From IMG/VR virus record IMGVR_UViG_3300033273_000658, positions 1 through 64,000 of that record: 64,000 bases of DNA, one strand, 5' to 3'. The DNA comes from a virus. Positions within the stretch are counted from its first letter, which is position 1. Each line of letters starts with the position of its first letter. Of the stretch, positions 1 through 56,708 are shown piece after piece. A program made the translations under genes and the position numbers. The notes under the pieces were generated by a model that was not told the origin of the DNA, did no database searches, and worked only from the letters and a program-made list of their open reading frames with translations.

Positions 1-525
1 ATGTGGAAAATAGGCTATTGTACCGAAGGCAGATACGGTGGCCGGATTATTGTTCCATCATTCAATAATGCTGGTAATCTTAATTACTTCATCGCTCGTT
101 CATACGTTGGACATAGAATGAAGTATCTCAACCCACCTATCAGTAAAAACGTTGTATTTAACGAACTGTTTGTCGATTGGGATGAGCCTGTTATTCTTGT
201 CGAAGGTTTATTTGATGCAATCGTTGGAGGGCAAAATGCAATACCTATTCTCGGCTCAACATTACGAGAAGAAAGCAAGTTATTCCAAGCAATTGTTCTC
301 AACGACACGCCGGTATACCTTGCACTTGACGAAGACGCTCAAAAGAAACAAGAATACATGATTCGTACAATGCACAAGTATGACATTGACATGAGAGTTA
401 TTGATACCACCAATGTTGATGACGTAGGTTCAATGAGCAAAGAGCAATTCCAAAAGAGATACTCAAACGCTTATGAGCCTGATATTGATGAGATTAACTT
501 CTTTAATCAATTAGCTAAAATATGA
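1..525 (+). CDS. DNA primase (DnaG/gp61-like), C-terminal part, cut by window edge
   Basis: This is the TOPRIM catalytic part of a DnaG-type primase, which makes RNA primers at the replication fork. The motif ILVEGLFDAI (about residues 65-74) carries the conserved TOPRIM glutamate, and YLALDEDA (about 107-114) carries the D-x-D metal site. The preceding segment (GGRIIVPSFNNAGNLN) is the usual primase core strand just before TOPRIM. The reading frame is already inside the domain at base 1, so the first ATG is probably internal and the zinc-binding N-terminus lies outside the window. Its last codons overlap a minus-strand gene tail to tail. Family assignment is good; whether it is closer to T4 gp61 or bacterial DnaG is not decided. 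Confidence 0.8.
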   Translation: MWKIGYCTEGRYGGRIIVPSFNNAGNLNYFIARSYVGHRMKYLNPPISKNVVFNELFVDWDEPVILVEGLFDAIVGGQNAIPILGSTLREESKLFQAIVLNDTPVYLALDEDAQKKQEYMIRTMHKYDIDMRVIDTTNVDDVGSMSKEQFQKRYSNAYEPDIDEINFFNQLAKI

Positions 526-782: not shown

Positions 783-3700
783 ATGAAAATAGCACACATA
801 TCTGATACCCACATCAGGAATCTTAAGTATCACTACGAGTACAAGTTGGCTTTTGCTGATATGTACAAAAAACTTAAGCAAATGTCACCAGACATTATTG
901 TTCACACAGGAGACATTGCACACACTAAAACTCAACTATCACCAGAGTTTTTCCAGATGTGCACGTCTTTCTTGTATAATCTCGCAGAGATCGCACCTAC
1001 TTATATTATATTAGGTAATCACGATGGCAATCTCAAGAATGATAATCGCCAAGACGCTATCACTCCAATTGTTGAAGCTTTGGAGCATAGCAACATTCAT
1101 TTACTTAAAAACTCCGGAGAGACAAAGGTAAATGATAAGATCACTCTCAATGTTCTATCAGTATTTGATAGAGAAAACTGGATTAAACCGACTGATAGAG
1201 ACGCTATTAATATCGCTCTTTATCATGGCTCTATTCATGGATGTCAAACTTCCCAAGGTTTCACGATTGAAGAAGGTGAAGACTCTATTGACATATTCAA
1301 TGATTTTGACTTTGCTCTTCTTGGTGACATTCATAAGCAGCAGAAAATGGACCTCAAGGGACGAATCCGTTATGCCGGATCTACAATCCAACAAAACTTT
1401 GGAGAATCAATTAACAAAGGTTTTTTGATGTGGAACATCCGAGACAGATATGATTGGTATTGTCAATCTGTCTCTATTCATAATCCACGACCGTTTATCA
1501 CAATTGATCTAACACCCGAAGGTAAACTTCCAGCAACTATAGTGCCAAAAGGATGTCGCCTACGAATTCGCTCATCTGCTAATGTATCTCCAATGATGCT
1601 AAAGGCAGCATGCGACTATGCTCAATCCAAGTGGCAACCATACTCTGTTTCTTTTGTCAATAACGGAACGATGCAGTCATCATCTACATCTTTGATTGGT
1701 AAAGCTGTTCAGAATGAGAACCTCCGAGACCTCACAGTGCAGGAGAAGTACATCCGAGCATACTGTAAAGACCTCAATCTCAAACCAGAGGTTATGGATA
1801 AAATTCTTGAACTTAACAAAAAATACAATCAAATCGTTGAAGAATCAGAGGAGGTATCACGTAATGTTGTTTGGAAAATTAAAGAACTCCAGTGGGATAA
1901 CTTGTTTAACTACGGTGAGAAAAATAAGATTAATTTCGAAAAACTATCCGGACTTGTCGGAATCTTTGGTAAAAACTATTCAGGAAAGTCCTCTATTATC
2001 GACAGCGTGTTATATAATATTTTTAACACGACTTCTAAAGGGGAAAGAAAGAATGTCCACATTGTAAATCAAAATAAAGATTTTGCTAAATGTAAGATTA
2101 AGATTGAGGCTGGTAATGACTCTTATCAGATTACCCGAAATCTTAACAAATACACGAAGAAATCCAAGGGTCAAGAGACTTTCGAAGCGAAGGTGGACCT
2201 TGACTTCACTAAAACAACAGGCGGCGTTTTTGAGTCTAAAAACGGCACAACTCGCAATGAAACTGATGCGAACATTCGTAAGCACTTCGGAACCATTGAT
2301 GACTTCTTTTTGACCTCTATGGCTTCTCAACTTGACTCTATGTCGTTCCTCAAAGAAGGTTCTACCAAGAGAAAAGAGATTATAGCGAAATTTTTGGACT
2401 TGCAAATCTTCGACCAGAAGTATAAGTTAGCCAGAAAGGATGCTGCTGACCTACGTGGTGTTATCAAGCGAATGGAAAGCAAAAAGTTCGAAGAACAACT
2501 CATGAAGAAGAACGATCTTCTCCAAGATATTCAAAAAGACATCGATGAGCAAGTAGATAAGTGCAAGATTTATAATTGCTCAATTGAGCGACTTGAATCT
2601 GAACTTGCAGAGATTAACGATACAATCAATGCAATTCCTGCGGAGATTATTGACATTCTCACTGTTCAACAAGAGATTGCTTTCAAAAGAGTTAAAAAAA
2701 CCAAACTTCTTTCTCGCATTCTTGCTGATCAAGAGAACATCCAAAAGCTTGAAAAATACATGGCTCTTGCTTATGATGAACTTGATCATGATAACTACGG
2801 CCGCTTAAAGCAATTGTTGAAAGAAGCAAAGGATCAAAAAGAACTTGTAAAAGGCTTTGAACAACAAATTCGTCATCAAAAGACTATTGTTAAAAACCTC
2901 AGTAAGACAGCAGCAATGCTTCACACTCATGAATATGATCCTGATTGTGAATTCTGTTGCGACAATGAGTTTGTAAAGAATGCAGAGAAAGCAAAAGCAG
3001 AACTGCCTTACAATCAGAATCTTTTGAACGATCTTGGTGATTCATTAGCACTGGCTATTCAAAAGTATGAAGACTATGGCGTTGAAACTATAGAAAGAAA
3101 TATTGAAAAGTTCAAAGAGTTAAGTGAAGACTATGATTCTGCTTCTAGAAATTCTGAACGTGCAAGAATGTCTATCAAGACAAACGAAGCGACCGTTGCT
3201 CTATTAACAAACGAGATTGAAGTGCTTGAAGCGAAAGCAAAAGAGTACGAAGACAATCGTGAAGCAATCGAAAATAAAGAACAGCTTTATGGAGAACGCT
3301 CTGCGGTTGAGAAGAAAATCAAAGAAAACAAAGCGTTGCTTAAAAAATGCGATGCCCTTACACAAGAGTATCTTATCGAAGAAGCAACAACAAAAGAAAT
3401 GATTCGCGCTATTCATGCTGAGAGAAACGAATACACTGATGTTATGAACGAGTATCGTGCTTATGACATCTACATGACCTGTATGCATGCTAACGGCATC
3501 TCATACGAAATCATTCAGCAGAAGTTGCCGATCATCAATCAAGAGATCTCCAAGGTTCTTGCAAACATTGTTGACTTTGAAGTATTCTTTGAGAATCACT
3601 CTAATAAACTTGAGCTTTCTATCAAGCATCCCAACTATGCGGCTCGTCCGTTGTCTATGGGATCAGGAGCAGAAAAAACGATTGCTTCAATGGCTATTCG

Positions 3701-3932
3701 TCTTGCGATGATTGCGATAACCAATCTTCCAAAGTCCGAACTGTTTATCCTTGACGAACCGGCAACGGCGCTAGATCAAGAGCACATGGAAGGCTTTACA
3801 AGGCTTCTTCAAATGATCAAGAATCAATTTAAGACTGTCTTAATTGTCTCCCATCTTGACCATCTAAAAGATGTGGTTGACATGACGATAGACATTGATA
3901 AAATTGATGGTTATGCCAAAGTAAACATTTAG
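783..3932 (+). CDS. Mre11-Rad50 (SbcD-SbcC; T4 gp47-gp46) fusion protein
   Basis: This 1049-residue protein carries a complete Mre11/SbcD nuclease followed by a complete Rad50/SbcC ATPase, which are separate genes (47 and 46) in T4. The nuclease half (about 1-330) has the phosphoesterase motifs ISDTHI, HTGDIAH, LGNHDGN, ALYHGSIHG and LLGDIHKQ. The ATPase half begins near 366, with Walker A GKNYSGKSS (K402), a long coiled coil containing a CxxC zinc hook (C722, C725), signature LSMGSGAEK (957-965), Walker B LFILDEPA (D991, E992) and H-loop SH (1023-1024). All key residues are present, so it should be active. The complex resects DNA ends for recombination-dependent replication. It has its own consensus promoter and an AGGAGG ribosome binding site. 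Confidence 0.93.
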   Translation: MKIAHISDTHIRNLKYHYEYKLAFADMYKKLKQMSPDIIVHTGDIAHTKTQLSPEFFQMCTSFLYNLAEIAPTYIILGNHDGNLKNDNRQDAITPIVEALEHSNIHLLKNSGETKVNDKITLNVLSVFDRENWIKPTDRDAINIALYHGSIHGCQTSQGFTIEEGEDSIDIFNDFDFALLGDIHKQQKMDLKGRIRYAGSTIQQNFGESINKGFLMWNIRDRYDWYCQSVSIHNPRPFITIDLTPEGKLPATIVPKGCRLRIRSSANVSPMMLKAACDYAQSKWQPYSVSFVNNGTMQSSSTSLIGKAVQNENLRDLTVQEKYIRAYCKDLNLKPEVMDKILELNKKYNQIVEESEEVSRNVVWKIKELQWDNLFNYGEKNKINFEKLSGLVGIFGKNYSGKSSIIDSVLYNIFNTTSKGERKNVHIVNQNKDFAKCKIKIEAGNDSYQITRNLNKYTKKSKGQETFEAKVDLDFTKTTGGVFESKNGTTRNETDANIRKHFGTIDDFFLTSMASQLDSMSFLKEGSTKRKEIIAKFLDLQIFDQKYKLARKDAADLRGVIKRMESKKFEEQLMKKNDLLQDIQKDIDEQVDKCKIYNCSIERLESELAEINDTINAIPAEIIDILTVQQEIAFKRVKKTKLLSRILADQENIQKLEKYMALAYDELDHDNYGRLKQLLKEAKDQKELVKGFEQQIRHQKTIVKNLSKTAAMLHTHEYDPDCEFCCDNEFVKNAEKAKAELPYNQNLLNDLGDSLALAIQKYEDYGVETIERNIEKFKELSEDYDSASRNSERARMSIKTNEATVALLTNEIEVLEAKAKEYEDNREAIENKEQLYGERSAVEKKIKENKALLKKCDALTQEYLIEEATTKEMIRAIHAERNEYTDVMNEYRAYDIYMTCMHANGISYEIIQQKLPIINQEISKVLANIVDFEVFFENHSNKLELSIKHPNYAARPLSMGSGAEKTIASMAIRLAMIAITNLPKSELFILDEPATALDQEHMEGFTRLLQMIKNQFKTVLIVSHLDHLKDVVDMTIDIDKIDGYAKVNI

Positions 3933-3979: not shown

Positions 3980-6022
3980 ATGAAAATTAAAATTAAGAAA
4001 AACAGCAAAGTATTGAAAGAAAGATACGACCAAAGTCCAACTTCTATTAAGCCACTAGAAGAATTGTTTAACGATTTGGGGCTTATGAAAGATGGAATAA
4101 GACAGTTGGAATCAATTTTTCAAAAAGATTTGTTGTTTTATGACTTAGAAACGACTGGTTTAAAGAGATCTCAAACTGAAGGTGGTGCAATTTCTGACAT
4201 GATCCATCAAATAGCAATTCTAAAATATTCTCCCAATGGAGACCCTAATAGCATAAACCCAGAAAATCCAGATGATTATTACGTTGCAAAGGCAGAAATT
4301 ACCAAAGAATACAGTGACCGGTCAAGCAACCTCAAAAAAGATAGAGCAAAAATTTTGAACCAGACAAGTCAAGGCTCATATGCAGATTATAAAAGCATGA
4401 TAGGAGAAGACCTGTCATTTAATAAAAACCCACGGGAGTTTGAAGAAAATTATCAAGCAACAGAAAAAGAAAAACAAGAGCAAAAAAATGACATGAAAGA
4501 AACACTAGGGTTATTTTTTCATGTTTTATTAAATCATCCAGTGAAAAGTCAAGCTGAAAAAACAATCTATCAACAACCTAAATTTCGTAACTTATTTAAT
4601 AAAGCACTAGAATATGCTAGCACTATTAATCTACAAGAAGAAGTGGGAAAAATACTTTTAAATAAAAATCCAAATAGACAACAATTAATTTATCTTTATG
4701 ACAATGTACTCAGTGAAGATAGTGTAGAGGGTGGGATTACTACATGGCTGAAGAGTAAGGGTTTATCTAAATTAGCCGATAAAGTAGATCAAATTATTAG
4801 AGTTACAAACATTACTATAGAAGAAAATAGAGTATTTACAAACTATGGTGATTTTCCTTTAAAAAAATACCAAAATGAAAGCTTTAAAGGTCCAATTTCC
4901 GAAAAAAAAGCATTAGAGGGCATGATGGACTTTATTGATAACCAAGGAAATAAAAACCACACAGATGATGAAATAAGAGGCGATTACATTCTAGTGGGAC
5001 AAAACATCATTTCTTTTGATAATCCTTTCGTTATAGCCAGGTGTAAATTTCATGGAATCACAAATACGAAAAATTTTAGGAATTCACATGTATACGACAC
5101 CAGATTTTTATTTCAAGCAATGATAAAATATTTCAGAACATTTGCATATTTTTATGGTCTAGCTGGAGTAGCCCATTTACGCCAAGCCAAGCTAGAGTCT
5201 TATATGCAAAATGAAGAAGATCCAAAAAAGATAAATGCCTATAAAAAGGCAATAATCGATTTTGAGAAAATAAAATCTTTTAAAGATCCAAAGCTTAGAA
5301 AAGTGGGTAAGGAAGTAAGAGAAATTCTGAAAAAACTTGCAAAAGGCGGAAAAGCGAAAGGCAAACTAGAGACATTGATGAAAGCTTTTATACCAAATGC
5401 TCCGAAACAAACACACACAGCTGATGATGATTGTGAAAAACTAGCAACTGTTATGATACCAGCAATAGAAAAGTTTTATGAAATTTATCAAGCTACATTG
5501 CCCTTTGTTATAGAAATGGACAGAGAAAATGTTGTGGCAATTCATAGAATTGTCAAAGACAGTCCTATTGATCCAAAAACAAAAACAAAAAAGAAAACAA
5601 TACCAAGTGAGATCGATAAGGATAAGGCAGCAATTGGGTTTGAAAAATTTAAAGGAGCAGGAGACATTGCAGATAAAGTAGCATCTAAATTTGCGGAAGA
5701 TTTATCATTTGAATTTTTAGATAATGAAGGAAAACCTTCAAAAGAATTAGCAAAACAAATTATTAAAATTTATTTGCAAAAAAGAGAAGGGCTTCAAGGC
5801 TCAATGAAAGACTCAGAAAAGCTTGAAATTTTTAACAATTATGAAAACTTTACAGAAGATGATACTATAGAATGGTTCACTAAACATCAAGATAATTTAT
5901 CGATAATATACGCACCAGTATCGAAAATTAAAAAAATGACAAAGCTGGAAGAGAACACAAAAACACTAAAAATTAAAATTTTAAAGGAGAACAGAAATGG
6001 AAAACGAACACACTCACGATGA
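3980..6022 (+). CDS. DEDD-family (DnaQ-like) 3'-5' exonuclease with large insertions
   Basis: This 680-residue protein has the three exonuclease motifs widely spaced: Exo I FYDLETTGL (D55, E57), Exo II VGQNIISFDNP (D347) and Exo III HTADDDCEK (H479, D483). About 290 residues separate Exo I from Exo II, far more than in DnaQ, so a large extra domain is inserted. It could proofread for the short polymerase at 47253-48428, which has no exonuclease domain, though it is encoded far away next to virion genes. Both ends carry similar basic tracts, MKIKIKKNSKVLKE and LKIKILKEN, each ending in L-K-E, a plausible cleavage site for a gp21-type protease; this suggests, without proving, that it is packaged. 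The start follows AGGA and a T-rich spacer. Confidence 0.75.
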   Translation: MKIKIKKNSKVLKERYDQSPTSIKPLEELFNDLGLMKDGIRQLESIFQKDLLFYDLETTGLKRSQTEGGAISDMIHQIAILKYSPNGDPNSINPENPDDYYVAKAEITKEYSDRSSNLKKDRAKILNQTSQGSYADYKSMIGEDLSFNKNPREFEENYQATEKEKQEQKNDMKETLGLFFHVLLNHPVKSQAEKTIYQQPKFRNLFNKALEYASTINLQEEVGKILLNKNPNRQQLIYLYDNVLSEDSVEGGITTWLKSKGLSKLADKVDQIIRVTNITIEENRVFTNYGDFPLKKYQNESFKGPISEKKALEGMMDFIDNQGNKNHTDDEIRGDYILVGQNIISFDNPFVIARCKFHGITNTKNFRNSHVYDTRFLFQAMIKYFRTFAYFYGLAGVAHLRQAKLESYMQNEEDPKKINAYKKAIIDFEKIKSFKDPKLRKVGKEVREILKKLAKGGKAKGKLETLMKAFIPNAPKQTHTADDDCEKLATVMIPAIEKFYEIYQATLPFVIEMDRENVVAIHRIVKDSPIDPKTKTKKKTIPSEIDKDKAAIGFEKFKGAGDIADKVASKFAEDLSFEFLDNEGKPSKELAKQIIKIYLQKREGLQGSMKDSEKLEIFNNYENFTEDDTIEWFTKHQDNLSIIYAPVSKIKKMTKLEENTKTLKIKILKENRNGKRTHSR

Positions 6023-50082: not shown

Positions 50083-50835
50083 ATGGCACTTAATATTGAA
50101 CTAATGAAACAAAAACTTGCAAACTCACAAAACAAGAATGCAGGAAAAACAAATGATACTAAATGGCGACCATCAGAAGGAGACCAAACAATTCGAATCC
50201 TTCCAACCAAAGATGGAGACCCGTTCAAGGAATTCCACTTCCACTACAATGTAGGAAAGAATCCTGGTATCCTTTGTCCTAAAAAGAACTACGGCGAGCA
50301 CTGCCCTATTTGCGACTTTGCCTCCAATCTCTGGCGAGATGGTGTGGATAACAATGACGATCAAACTAAAAATGCTGCAAAGAAGTTATTCGCTCGTAAG
50401 CGTTACTACTCTCCAATCCTTGTCCGTGGTCAAGAGACCTCTGGTGTAAAGGTATGGGCTTACGGTAAGACTGCGTATGAGACACTTCTTGGTTATGTAT
50501 TGGATCCTGATTATGGAGACATTACCTCTGCCGAAACCGGAACTGACATCGTTCTTTCGTACACAGTTCCTGGCACACCCGGTTCTTTCCCAAAGACCCA
50601 ACTTAAACCTCGTCGCCGTCCCTCCGTACTATGTGATGAGGCAATCGCTGACTGTGATGCTCTTCTAGATAGTGTGCCCGACATCGAAGCACAATTTACA
50701 AGACTGTCATCTGAAGATATACAAGCTCTGTTGGACGACTATCTGTCTACGGATTCCTCCTCCGAAATGTCCTCCTCAGAAACTGCTAAGTACGGCAGTT
50801 CCGTAGATAAAAAGATTAGCGACTTTCTAAGTTAG
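50083..50835 (+). CDS. Single-stranded DNA-binding protein (gp32-like)
   Basis: 250 residues. The gp32 layout is clear: a basic N-terminal cooperativity segment (MKQKLANSQNKNAGK), then a zinc site from FHFHYNVG (H52/H54), C65, C74 and C77 (CPKKNYGEHCPIC), aromatic DNA-binding strands (ARKRYYSPILVRG), and a Ser/Asp-rich acidic C-terminus ending KKISDFLS, which in this family recruits other replication proteins. Slightly shorter than T4 gp32 (301). It has its own promoter and a terminator follows. Confidence 0.93.
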   Translation: MALNIELMKQKLANSQNKNAGKTNDTKWRPSEGDQTIRILPTKDGDPFKEFHFHYNVGKNPGILCPKKNYGEHCPICDFASNLWRDGVDNNDDQTKNAAKKLFARKRYYSPILVRGQETSGVKVWAYGKTAYETLLGYVLDPDYGDITSAETGTDIVLSYTVPGTPGSFPKTQLKPRRRPSVLCDEAIADCDALLDSVPDIEAQFTRLSSEDIQALLDDYLSTDSSSEMSSSETAKYGSSVDKKISDFLS

Positions 50836-52118: not shown

Positions 52119-53219
52119 ATGACTAAAGCAGGTAAAATTGACCTAAAAGCGATGCAAAAACTTGTTAACAAAAAGACCGGCTTAAACGTTGCTCACAACC
52201 TAAACGAAAATAATCCCACTATTGTGAAAGAGTGGATTCCGACAGGGTCTCGCTGGCTTGATTCTATTACATGTAGAGGAAGACTTGGTGGTATTCCAGT
52301 AGGAAAGATAACAGAGATTGCCGGACTATCTGGTGCCGGTAAATCATTCATGGCTGCTCAAATTGCTGCTAATGCTCAGAAGATGGGAAAGTTTCCTGTA
52401 TACTTTGATGCTGAATCTGCAATTGACCCAGAATTCTTGGAGAATGCCGGAATTGATACTCAAAACCTAATGTATGTTCAGGCAATCTCTGTTGAAAAAG
52501 TATTAGAAACAATTGAGACTCTTATCGATCAATACGAAGACACACAATTCTTGTTTATCTGGGACTCAATTGCTGCAACAAGTTCTGAAAAAGAACTTGA
52601 ATCAGATTTTAATCCTCAATCAACAATGTCCGTTAAGCCAAGAATCTTTGGCAAGGCATTTCCCAAACTAACTATTCCCTTGGCTAATGGACAACACACT
52701 TTGCTTCTGATAAACCAGTTGAAAACCAACATCAATACTCAGAACCCAATGGCTGCACTTATTGAGCCTTACATTGCTCCCGGTGGCAAAGCTATTGAAT
52801 ACTTCTGTTCTATGCGTATTTGGCTTACAAAGCGTAAATCAAAGGCAGCATACTTGCAAGATGATACTGGTCTTCGTATTGGTTCGGAAGTAAAGTGTAA
52901 ACTTCAGAAGTCTCGTTTCGGGACTGAAGGAAGAGAGTGCACATTCAAAATTCTATGGTCTGGTGGCGCTGCTATTCAAGATGAAGAGTCTTGGCTGTTA
53001 GCACTCAAATCCTCTGGAACCAAACGCTTGAAGTTATCAGGTGCATGGTATACTCTTGTTGATAAAGATGGAAAAGAAATGAAATTCCAAGGAAAACAAT
53101 GGAAGGCAAAGCTTCAAGATCCACATTTTAGACAAACAGTTCTAGATATTATGGATGAAGAGATTGTTAAGAAATTTGATTCCGAAGGTAAAAATTTTGG
53201 TGTGAGTGAAGACGACTAG
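52119..53219 (+). CDS. uvsX: RecA/UvsX-like recombinase
   Basis: 366 residues. Walker A GLSGAGKS (69-76), Walker B FLFIWDS (144-150), and the DNA-binding L1/L2 region including LLLINQLKTNINTQNP are in the expected order; the opening 'IPTGSRWLD' and the acidic C-terminus are also standard. UvsX coats single strands and drives strand invasion for recombination-dependent replication, working with the SSB and the Mre11-Rad50 fusion. Length is close to T4 UvsX (391). A strong terminator follows. Confidence 0.93.
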   Translation: MTKAGKIDLKAMQKLVNKKTGLNVAHNLNENNPTIVKEWIPTGSRWLDSITCRGRLGGIPVGKITEIAGLSGAGKSFMAAQIAANAQKMGKFPVYFDAESAIDPEFLENAGIDTQNLMYVQAISVEKVLETIETLIDQYEDTQFLFIWDSIAATSSEKELESDFNPQSTMSVKPRIFGKAFPKLTIPLANGQHTLLLINQLKTNINTQNPMAALIEPYIAPGGKAIEYFCSMRIWLTKRKSKAAYLQDDTGLRIGSEVKCKLQKSRFGTEGRECTFKILWSGGAAIQDEESWLLALKSSGTKRLKLSGAWYTLVDKDGKEMKFQGKQWKAKLQDPHFRQTVLDIMDEEIVKKFDSEGKNFGVSEDD

Positions 53220-53996: not shown

Positions 53997-54331
53997 GAGC
54001 ATTATTTGCAATTATATTATTTACAGCAGCCCAGATTTTAGCTTGGTTTCAATCAAACTCTGGTATTATCGGAGAACCATTTAAATCAAATTATGTTTTA
54101 ATAGCTTTGATTTTTGGACCTATTGTATCCCTATTGTTTGCTCACGCAACAATAATGCTTTATGAGTCTATGCCTTTGTGGTCCATCAGGTTTGTAACAT
54201 TTGCGATAGGTTATTTAATTTTCATACCATTGACTTGGTATTTCTTGGGAGAAGAGGTGTTTACCCTTAAGAACATTTTATCGTTCTTGTTGTGTTGTGC
54301 TTTGATCTCAATACAGTTTTTCATGAAATAG
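53993..54331 (+). CDS. Four-pass membrane protein
   Basis: 112 residues with about four hydrophobic segments (ALFAIILFTAAQILAWF, YVLIALIFGPIVSLLFAH, SIRFVTFAIGYLIFIPLTW, ILSFLLCCALISIQFF). The final pair has a small-multidrug-resistance or DMT-like look (TWYFLGEEVFTLKNILSFLL), but that is weak. Coupled to the previous gene (ATGA) and closely followed by the 5' nuclease. Role unknown. Confidence 0.55.
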   Translation: MRALFAIILFTAAQILAWFQSNSGIIGEPFKSNYVLIALIFGPIVSLLFAHATIMLYESMPLWSIRFVTFAIGYLIFIPLTWYFLGEEVFTLKNILSFLLCCALISIQFFMK

Positions 54332-54339
54332 GAGGAGAA

Positions 54340-55290
54340 ATGAAAAGGGTTATGATTATTGATGGTCTCAACATGTTTTTGAGGTCATACATCAACGTTC
54401 CGTCAATGGATAAGCACGGAGCACCGAACGGAGGAACATACGGCTTCATGAAGTCGCTCCAAAAAATTTGCGGGATGTTCAGTCCAGATCAGGTTATTAT
54501 CTGTTGGGATGGACAAGGAGGCTCGCAAAAGCGCAAGCAAATGAACAGTGACTACAAAGCAGGTAGAGCACCTGTTCGTTTCAATCGGAGACTTATTGAC
54601 TTGTCACCAGAAGAAGCAGACAAGAATAAATACAATCAACAGTACCGTTTGATGGAGTATCTTAACGATCTTCCCATCATTCAAACAATGATTGATTATA
54701 TCGAAGCAGACGATTGTATTTCTTACATTTGTCAACATAAGAAATACGAAGATTGGGAGAAGCTGATAGTCTCCTCAGATAAGGATTTTTTCCAGCTAAT
54801 TTCAAAGAAAACCAAGCTGTATCGTCCGATACAAGACAAGGTGGTAGATTACCCTACCTTGCTTGAAGAACACAAAATTCACCCCAAAAATTTCGCATTA
54901 GCGAGAAGTTTGGTTGGAGATAAATCGGACAATCTTCCGGGTGTTCCGAGAGTCGGTTTGAAGACAGTCGCTGGTAAATTTACATTTCTAAAAGAAGACA
55001 AACAGTATGAAGTTGAAGACATTATGCAGCATTGTGAATCTTTAGATAAAATGCTTAAGGTTCACGAAAACATTTTAGAACATTCTCATCTAGTTGAGAA
55101 GAACTTTGAAATAATGCAACTATATAGTCCACTCATTTCTAATCTACATAAAAAGCAAATAAATTTTTCTTTGGAAGAGTTTGAGCCTGAGATGAATAAA
55201 CTAGAAATCATGAAAAAGCTCGTAGCAGACGGCATTAATGCAGGAAACTTTAATGTTTTGTTTAATGCAATGAAAAAAATAACTTTATAA
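54340..55290 (+). CDS. 5'-3' exonuclease / RNase H (FEN family, T4 Rnh-like)
   Basis: The start is ATG 54340 with TAGGAGGAGAA upstream, giving 316 residues; an earlier in-frame ATG overlaps the membrane-protein gene and has no ribosome binding site. Family motifs: MIIDGLNMFLRS (first metal site), ICWDGQGGSQKRKQMNSDYK, IEADDCISYI, IVSSDKDFFQL, and the helix-hairpin-helix LVGDKSDNLPGVPRVGLKTV (20 residues). It removes RNA primers and flaps during lagging-strand synthesis. T4 Rnh is 305 residues. Confidence 0.9.
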   Translation: MKRVMIIDGLNMFLRSYINVPSMDKHGAPNGGTYGFMKSLQKICGMFSPDQVIICWDGQGGSQKRKQMNSDYKAGRAPVRFNRRLIDLSPEEADKNKYNQQYRLMEYLNDLPIIQTMIDYIEADDCISYICQHKKYEDWEKLIVSSDKDFFQLISKKTKLYRPIQDKVVDYPTLLEEHKIHPKNFALARSLVGDKSDNLPGVPRVGLKTVAGKFTFLKEDKQYEVEDIMQHCESLDKMLKVHENILEHSHLVEKNFEIMQLYSPLISNLHKKQINFSLEEFEPEMNKLEIMKKLVADGINAGNFNVLFNAMKKITL

Positions 55291-55349: not shown

Positions 55350-56708
55350 ATGAATAACAAAACGGAAACGTTTCAAAGGTTTGGCAAAGCCTTTCAAGAA
55401 AAATTCTGCCACATTATGCTTTCGGACAGACCATTTTGCGATCAAGTTGCAGAGGTTTTGAACGTGGAGTTTTTGGATTATGAATACCTTCGTGTATTTA
55501 CCCAGATTCTCTTTGAGCATAGAACAAAGTATAAGGTACACCCTTCTTATGAGATCATGGAATCAAGAATCAGGACAGAATGTAACAAGTATACAAAAGC
55601 ACTCAAAGAACAGCTTTTGCAATTCTACGCATCCATTCTTGCCACTGACCGTATTGACAACTCACAGTACATTAAGGATAGTTCAATCGACTTCTGTCGC
55701 AAACAAGTGCTTAAGGGCGCTATGATGAAGTCAGTTAAACTTATTAAGTCATCGTCATTCGATGAAATCCAGTCTGTTATTGAGGAAGCCTTGAAGCTAG
55801 GAACCGACAACAACTTTGGTCATGACTTCATCAAAGACTTTGAGGAACGATATACAATTACATCGCGAGATCCTGTTTCCACAGGTTTTGAACGCATTGA
55901 TGAGATTTGTAAGGGCGGTCTTGGTAAGTCTGAGTTAGGAGTTGTTATTGCACCAACAGGTGCTGGAAAGTCAATGGTATTGGTTCACTTAGGTTCCGAA
56001 GCGCTAAAGCAAGGCAAGACTGTTGTACACTACACATTGGAGTTACAAGATACGGTTGTTGGTAATCGTTATGATTCTTGCATTTCGGGTGTACCTTTGG
56101 GAGATCTCTTTCATAACAAACAGCAGGTTCTTTACAAAATTAAAGACATTCCTGGTCAACTTATTATAAAAGAGTATCCCACAAAGTCTGCATCAACAGA
56201 GACTATCAAGCAACACATCGAACGTCTTAAAAAACGTGGTATTGAGCCTGATATGATCATTGTTGATTATGCTGATCTTCTGCGACCTGTTCGTTCAACT
56301 GCTGAGAAGCGCTTTGATCTTGAGAACACTTATGAAGAGCTGCGAGCAATTGCTCAAATCTATAAGTGCCCTGTTTGGACTGCTTCCCAGACAAACCGTT
56401 CCGGTCTCAATGCAGAAGTTATCACCATGGAAGCTATTTCAGAAGCATTCAATAAGTGTTTCGTTGCAGACTTTATTTGTTCTTTGTCTCGTACTGTTCA
56501 AGACAAGCAAGCTAATAAAGGCCGCATGTTTATTGCAAAGAACAGAAATGGTCCCGATGGCCTTATATTCCCAGCGTTTGTTGACTGGTCGAATGTAAAC
56601 ATGAAGGTTTTAAACCAAGAAAGTGGAGAGTCTATCGCTGATGTTATCAAAGACTCAGATAGAAATACTCTAGACTTTCTTAAAGAAAAATATAAAAAAC
56701 ATAAATGA
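55350..56708 (+). CDS. Replicative DNA helicase (DnaB/gp41-like)
   Basis: 452 residues. The RecA-like core has Walker A APTGAGKS (201-208), the H1a motif YTLEL (228-232), Walker B MIIVDYADLL (302-311), WTASQTNRSG with the family's Q, and FIAKNRNGPDG near the arginine finger. It unwinds the fork on the lagging strand, loading the primase whose C-terminus starts this window. Length matches T4 gp41 (475). Confidence 0.93.
   Translation: MNNKTETFQRFGKAFQEKFCHIMLSDRPFCDQVAEVLNVEFLDYEYLRVFTQILFEHRTKYKVHPSYEIMESRIRTECNKYTKALKEQLLQFYASILATDRIDNSQYIKDSSIDFCRKQVLKGAMMKSVKLIKSSSFDEIQSVIEEALKLGTDNNFGHDFIKDFEERYTITSRDPVSTGFERIDEICKGGLGKSELGVVIAPTGAGKSMVLVHLGSEALKQGKTVVHYTLELQDTVVGNRYDSCISGVPLGDLFHNKQQVLYKIKDIPGQLIIKEYPTKSASTETIKQHIERLKKRGIEPDMIIVDYADLLRPVRSTAEKRFDLENTYEELRAIAQIYKCPVWTASQTNRSGLNAEVITMEAISEAFNKCFVADFICSLSRTVQDKQANKGRMFIAKNRNGPDGLIFPAFVDWSNVNMKVLNQESGESIADVIKDSDRNTLDFLKEKYKKHK

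Follow-up and report, generated by a model that had tools for sequence, protein, structure and literature searches.

Single-chain fusions of Mre11 and Rad50 were published in 2011 by Yoshida, Claverie and Ogata, who described them in Mimivirus (R555), a Bacillus phage, bacteria, plasmids and eukaryotes, and reported R555-like sequences to be abundant in aquatic viral metagenomes, with many suspected to be phage-borne (PMC3175470); by that account, the fusion architecture is neither unique nor new. In R555-like fusions, the nuclease-first order and a linker of 9–12 residues fit a gap of ~28 Å in the Thermotoga complex, and R555 carries a His for the Asp of GDxxD together with an Asp for P. furiosus His206 (PMC3175470). 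The T4 gp47/gp46, SPO1-like and T5-like pairs have the same domains as the protein described here, in the same order and replication context (UvsX, gp32, helicase), but are encoded by two separate genes rather than a single open reading frame; the T4-like and SPO1-like nucleases also read GHxH where ours reads GDIH. For T4, gp46/gp47 are assigned to recombination and host-DNA degradation (T4 record note). E. coli SbcCD and archaeal Mre11-Rad50 share the fold of both halves, but as two chains, with E. coli again having GHxH as well as a longer SbcC (1048 aa).

The DNA analysed here, ‘the window’, is a stretch of 64,000 nucleotides (positions 1 to 64,000 of IMG/VR record IMGVR_UViG_3300033273_000658). 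An open reading frame at 783..3932 on the plus strand starts with ATG and encodes 1049 amino acids, with no internal stops. We are confident that its product is an R555-type single-chain Mre11-Rad50, which most likely acts as the gp46/gp47 of a T4-like phage; the assignment as a fusion rests on the reading frame itself, on hits in Pfam and PHROG that cover the two halves, and on 130 unique, intact, full-length homologues. Like R555, it has an N-terminal nuclease and C-terminal Rad50, retains the helix-loop-helix, and has a short joint, a GDxxH motif and an Asp for the P. furiosus His206 (PMC3175470); it is, however, shorter than the 1351 aa giant-virus protein, and belongs to a phage. The RNxxW motif of the joint and the forms of hook that we describe below are seen in the family of the window protein, and are not reported for the R555 type in the part of that paper drawn on here (PMC3175470).

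A sequence-only reading of the window had placed a Mre11 nuclease and a Rad50 ATPase in this one 1049-residue frame, and our searches bear this out. Pfam matches Metallophos to residues 1–185 (E 1e-13), AAA_23 to residues 369–588 (E 8e-10) and SMC_N to the C-lobe of the Rad50 ATPase, whilst PHROG_77 (SbcC-like) aligns with residues 301–1047 (E 3e-56). A family profile compared with solved structures returns both Mre11/SbcD and Rad50/SbcC, as does Foldseek with the AlphaFold2 model of the monomer. That model has a mean pLDDT of 83 and a pTM of 0.46, the latter value probably being due to the long rod of the predicted structure.

Moving along the chain from its N-terminus, we assign the Mre11-type phosphoesterase to residues ~1–232 and the capping domain to residues ~233–295 (together 783..1667, plus strand), on the basis of the Metallophos match, the AlphaFold2 model, Foldseek and residue counts. 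The nuclease motifs read D8xH10, GD44IAH47, GN79H80D, H148G and GD182IH184. The earlier description of a ‘full set’ of Mre11 motifs consequently holds for most of them but fails at two positions: the expected GHxH reads GDIH, with residue counts placing Asp182 where His is usual (1326–1334, plus strand), and the second Asp of GDxxD is His47. Both His47 and Asp182 are present in 130 of 130 relatives, and, judged by its published residues, Mimivirus R555 makes the same two departures (PMC3175470). The counted active-site residues are otherwise invariant across the 130 unique full-length relatives, barring terminal gaps and one S403T. From sequence, the change of His to Asp182 could alter the activity of the nuclease.

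Beyond the capping domain, the model loses confidence (pLDDT < 50) over residues 296–310 (1668..1712, plus strand), a stretch of low conservation that we take to be a flexible tether leading to the Rad50-binding helix-loop-helix of Mre11; the latter is predicted as helices 317–331 and 335–355 (1731..1847, plus strand), with pLDDT values of 78–92. There then follows a joint of ~7 residues before the first strand of Rad50 begins at residue 363. The fusion joint (residues 356–364; 1848..1874, plus strand) is ordered in the model and almost free of gaps in the alignment, with R360, N361 and W364 invariant in all 130 unique relatives; it is an ordered, invariant R-N-x-x-W motif, and not a loose linker. 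What is loose in the predicted structure sits earlier, in the tether at 296–310. The suggestion that a covalent tie restricts geometry near the joint finds support in both the modelled helices with their short ordered joint and the invariance of its three residues.

Given that Mre11 and Rad50 act elsewhere as separate chains, the fused gene might nonetheless yield two working proteins, if the chain were processed at its joint or if an internal start gave free Rad50, and the unstructured 296–310 stretch could admit a protease. The joint itself, however, is ordered and carries its three invariant residues, and across the 130 relatives there is no conserved start codon within it (position 362 is V or I; position 363 mostly N, I, V or K), which disfavours internal initiation at this point. 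We regard action as two separate proteins as very unlikely, and prefer to read the product as one chain.

The Rad50 half opens with the N-lobe of the ATPase (1869..2402, plus strand; AAA_23, matches to Rad50 structures in the PDB and residue counts), which contains the Walker A motif GKNYSGKS (residues 396–403; 1968–1991, plus strand) and the Q-loop residue Q516. Predicted helices and identity profiles delineate an ascending coiled coil (residues 541–715; 2403..2927, plus strand) that evolves fast, and the descending coiled coil, again from predicted helices, spans residues 729–927 (2967..3563, plus strand). Between them, flanked by helices 669–715 and 729–764, lies the apex of the hook, read from alignments of relatives as the CxxC-type sequence HEYDPDCEFCC (2928..2966, plus strand); its canonical pair of cysteines, C722 and C725, is encoded at 2946–2957. 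The C-lobe (3564..3929, plus strand; SMC_N match and invariance) holds the signature SGAEK (961–965), the Walker B residues D991 and E992, D998 in the D-loop, and H1024 in the H-loop. The set of ABC ATPase motifs (Walker A, Q-loop, signature, Walker B and H-loop) is therefore complete.

With a single metagenome contig as its source, a fusion of this kind might be an artefact of assembly or sequencing, in which a stop or frameshift between two genes had been missed. The same gene is found in many other assemblies. With the window protein as the sole query, IMG/VR yielded 18 loci, several of them full-length at 66–96% identity, and a profile recovered at least 584 related stretches; from the profile search and three more searches we gathered 189 loci (some being the same contig twice), which encode 130 unique single-chain proteins that are intact and full-length. 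Most of the short loci are partial matches that run into the end of the locus. No translated full-length match has a stop at the junction, where the joint residues are invariant. An isolate, Microcystis phage Mel-JY01, also has the fusion annotated as a single CDS (31% identity over its full length), and uncultured phages of 484 kb and 735 kb carry the same architecture. As the gene is intact in 130 distinct relatives and in Mel-JY01, the fusion is not a product of assembly, a possibility that these independent homologues refute and to which we give a negligible chance. The sequence-only reading had seen neither stop nor frameshift between the halves, and had looked to other fused homologues as a check; independent assemblies agree with it, and none of the intact homologues is split at the junction.

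Several relatives appeared at first sight to be interrupted. The gene at L018:5001-8105 (IMGVR 3300013126_000062) contains five in-frame TGA codons, one of which falls where relatives carry Trp, and is open only with TGA read as Trp (code 4); it is thus unbroken and, by its sequence, the phage is recoded. The pairs L005/L013 and L007/L016 each prove to be two pieces of one contig lying 10 bases apart, the interval presumably being a scaffold gap. In the 484-kb phage (LR756508.1), by contrast with the window gene, ~0.9 kb interrupts the fused gene after GDIHKRQK (L021:8600-9600). This insert holds an open reading frame that encodes Cys-rich fingers together with a TnsA-like nuclease domain (PF08722, E 6e-6), and a search of Rfam found no intron in it; it is possibly a homing element or marks a split gene. 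As a separate observation, full-length fused genes at 44% identity are present in two metagenome-assembled genomes, labelled ‘Acidiferrobacteraceae’ (L103) and ‘Flavobacteriales’ (L104). L103 and the IMG/VR contig L090 are equally long (24,260) and agree in their ranges and matches, so that L103 is probably viral sequence placed in a bacterial bin. A further candidate for a cellular fused homologue, L106, was rejected as a free nuclease, and a search of plasmids for fused homologues gave short partial matches only.

Trees place the fused proteins apart from the split systems. In the ATPase tree, the fused family, with the exception of the Rhizobium phage protein considered below, forms one clade (support 99/98) distinct from the split proteins of T4, SPO1-like and T5-like phages and of E. 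coli; the nuclease tree agrees in outline, although the free Bacteroidales nuclease (L106) is placed ambiguously among the fused ones. T4-like and SPO1-like proteins form separate clades on both. A single clade of all fused proteins is not rejected by the nuclease tree (p 0.11), and forms one side of a 91/81 branch in the ATPase tree. Mel-JY01 (WWT39521.1) and the 484-kb and 735-kb phages supply diverged fused relatives at 24–32% identity. The best match to the model in BFVD is a Tupanvirus repair protein (A0A6N1NVE8) of 1379 aa, a length fitting a fusion, with 22% identity and E 5.5e-64; the best viral structure matches as a whole come from Tupanvirus, Harvfovirus, other giant viruses and the Tenacibaculum phages pT24 and PTm1, all with lengths fitting the fusion. 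Rhizobium phage RHph_Y65 gp240 (L117:3245-6124) is a 959-aa CDS annotated as SbcD-like only, yet encodes a single-chain SbcD-SbcC with the same GDIH as the window protein. It differs in having GQHD for GNHD and in lacking most of the helix-loop-helix region in the alignment, and it sits on a long branch of unsure position; from its sequence, it is possibly a separate and independent fusion.

The genes that accompany the fusion are those of a phage with recombination and replication functions. Directly upstream, at 1..525 (plus strand), is a primase fragment (its TOPRIM part, cut by the end of the record; PHROG_47 DNA primase, E 1e-23), and a primase occupies the same place in L014, L020 and L021, which include the Microcystis and 484-kb phages. 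Further along, on the plus strand, are a gp32-like single-stranded DNA-binding protein (50083..50835; PF08804, E 1.5e-17), a UvsX/RecA-like recombinase (52119..53219; PF00154, E 2e-36; PHROG_97, E 5e-62) and a DnaB-like, gp41-type helicase (55350..56708; PF03796, E 3e-19; PHROG_19, E 8e-74); a 5′–3′ exonuclease (54292–55290; PF02739, E 1e-28) adjoins these recombination and replication genes. The phage also has a portal, terminase and protease of T4 type. On the other side of the fusion, directly 3′ of it, 3980–6022 encodes a 680-aa protein with no match in PHROG and only a sub-threshold similarity to RNase_T (residues 446–491). The source record is linear, 141 kb long and possibly incomplete, so separate gp46/gp47 genes could lie elsewhere.

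Judged from family and context, the fusion most likely does the job of gp46/gp47 in this phage, i.e. the processing of DNA ends for recombination-dependent replication. Two chains would dimerise through their nucleases and through ATPase heads that sandwich ATP, with the hook apices linking the coiled coils by means of a shared metal site; ATP hydrolysis would then gate the nuclease, such that DNA ends are trimmed to leave a 3′ single strand onto which UvsX can be loaded. The outcome would be recombination-dependent replication and end repair, and perhaps breakdown of host DNA. The fusion itself may have arisen from a Mre11-Rad50 operon with its nuclease-first order kept; the covalent link would fix the two activities in a 1:1 ratio and hold the Rad50-binding helices beside the head that they grip. 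Alternatively, the gp46/gp47 role may have been abandoned in favour of another task, such as degrading the DNA of the host or of competitors, or scavenging nucleotides, as the His-to-Asp change in the nuclease and the degradation of host DNA by T4 gp46/47 might suggest. This is unlikely in our view: all ATPase motifs and the remaining nuclease motifs are retained, a primase adjoins the fusion, and the phage has the full set of UvsX, gp32 and helicase. End processing remains our preferred reading.

The Rad50 hook is usually described as a CxxC zinc clasp, and all of the split Rad50s in a sample of eight phages have CxxC hooks. The fused family is different. Reading the apex first in an alignment of 70 members, we see it as either H-[EK]-Y-D-P-[DN]-C-x-[FY]-C or [IV]-P-C-G-x-x-[FY]-x-x-C-[KR]-F-I, discrete types from which few members depart. 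At least two apex cysteines are present in all 130 unique proteins, which divide into 70 with PCGx5C, 53 with CxxC, three with CxC and four others, 125 of the 130 fitting one of the two broad patterns. The CxC form, GCKC, occurs in L086, L091 and L100, within EFLRGCKCLREA or a similar sequence; in L077, L085, L095 and L198 the hook is a PCS or ACG variant whose spacing is longer. Both main forms are modelled as a short loop joining two long helices, in the same place.

The two forms are scattered across the family. On a tree of the core (with the coiled coil left out) they interchange at least 15 times, 13 of these being forced by well-supported branches; the tree of 70 members had 10 interchanges. 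In pairs with a core identity of ~0.90, the identity over positions 711–730 is 0.78–0.80 when the hooks are of the same type and 0.27–0.29 when they are not, whereas the remainder of the rod differs much less between hook types. The cores of L034 (CxxC) and L038 (PCG) are 97.4% identical, yet the identity between the two proteins drops sharply at around codon 690 and recovers by ~800–890. The nearest cassettes to their hooks lie in different relatives: L122/L123 for L034 (78–80%), and L124/L126 for L038 (65%). With 11 sequences in each case, and with groups that were picked after the data had been seen, AU tests reject a grouping of L038 with L124 and L126 for the core (p 6.5e-6), and a grouping of L034 with L038 for the cassette (p 0.0016).

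We read the hook apex as a module that appears, from these comparisons, to be exchanged by recombination in at least two forms, CxxC (that of the window protein) and PCGx5C, an exchange shown for one near-identical pair. Repeated local mutation (i.e. convergence) or chimeric contigs might instead have produced the two forms without any recombination. L069 and its relatives L134, L139 and L137 (95–97% core identity) differ mainly in apex type, in a rod that is variable anyway, with the L069 and L137 contigs sharing the IMG/VR dataset number 3300020477; when L069 is set against L134, the change of type is confined to ~20 residues, with similar sequence on either side of the apex, and a tract of that length would be short for an exchange. 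Against this, L034 and L038 have drawn their cassettes from two different relatives, the core and cassette each reject the grouping that the other would imply, and intermediate hook forms are few. A chimera is disfavoured for L038, since another assembly (the 131-kb contig of L120) contains a 100% match to its protein. On balance, an origin without recombination seems improbable to us, and exchange is the preferred account. It is this swapping of hooks that is new, the fusion itself being known; we found no papers on hook swapping in phages in the open-access literature, outside which most subscription journals lie.

In an engineered yeast Rad50, an SMC-type hinge can replace the hook with function kept, the two behaving as interchangeable dimerisation modules (PMC6969161), and for this reason a natural exchange of two-cysteine tips may be tolerated. 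Speculatively, an exchange of tips could change which chains pair. We offer, as a tentative idea that we hold to be rather less than an even bet, that the hook is a module of pairing specificity: the CxxC and PCGx5C forms (the latter having two cysteines but not CxxC) would each preferentially self-pair and pass by recombination between near-identical phages, being kept as alternative types either to prevent mixed complexes in co-infection or to evade a factor that recognises the hook; the specificity itself is speculation.

The main value of the fusion is as a compact Mre11-Rad50 of fixed stoichiometry that could simplify structural work. Its points of interest are the constrained joint and, above all, the swapped hook, the latter being beyond the reach of any one sequence. 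Near-identical pairs such as L034/L038 and L069/L134 provide a means to probe the duties of the hook, its need for zinc, and the control of pairing by the tip, and a natural exchange of hooks would mirror the hook/hinge experiment engineered in yeast Rad50 (PMC6969161). In place of the usual CxxC clasp alone, this family of phages uses at least two conserved designs of tip and, as it appears, trades them.
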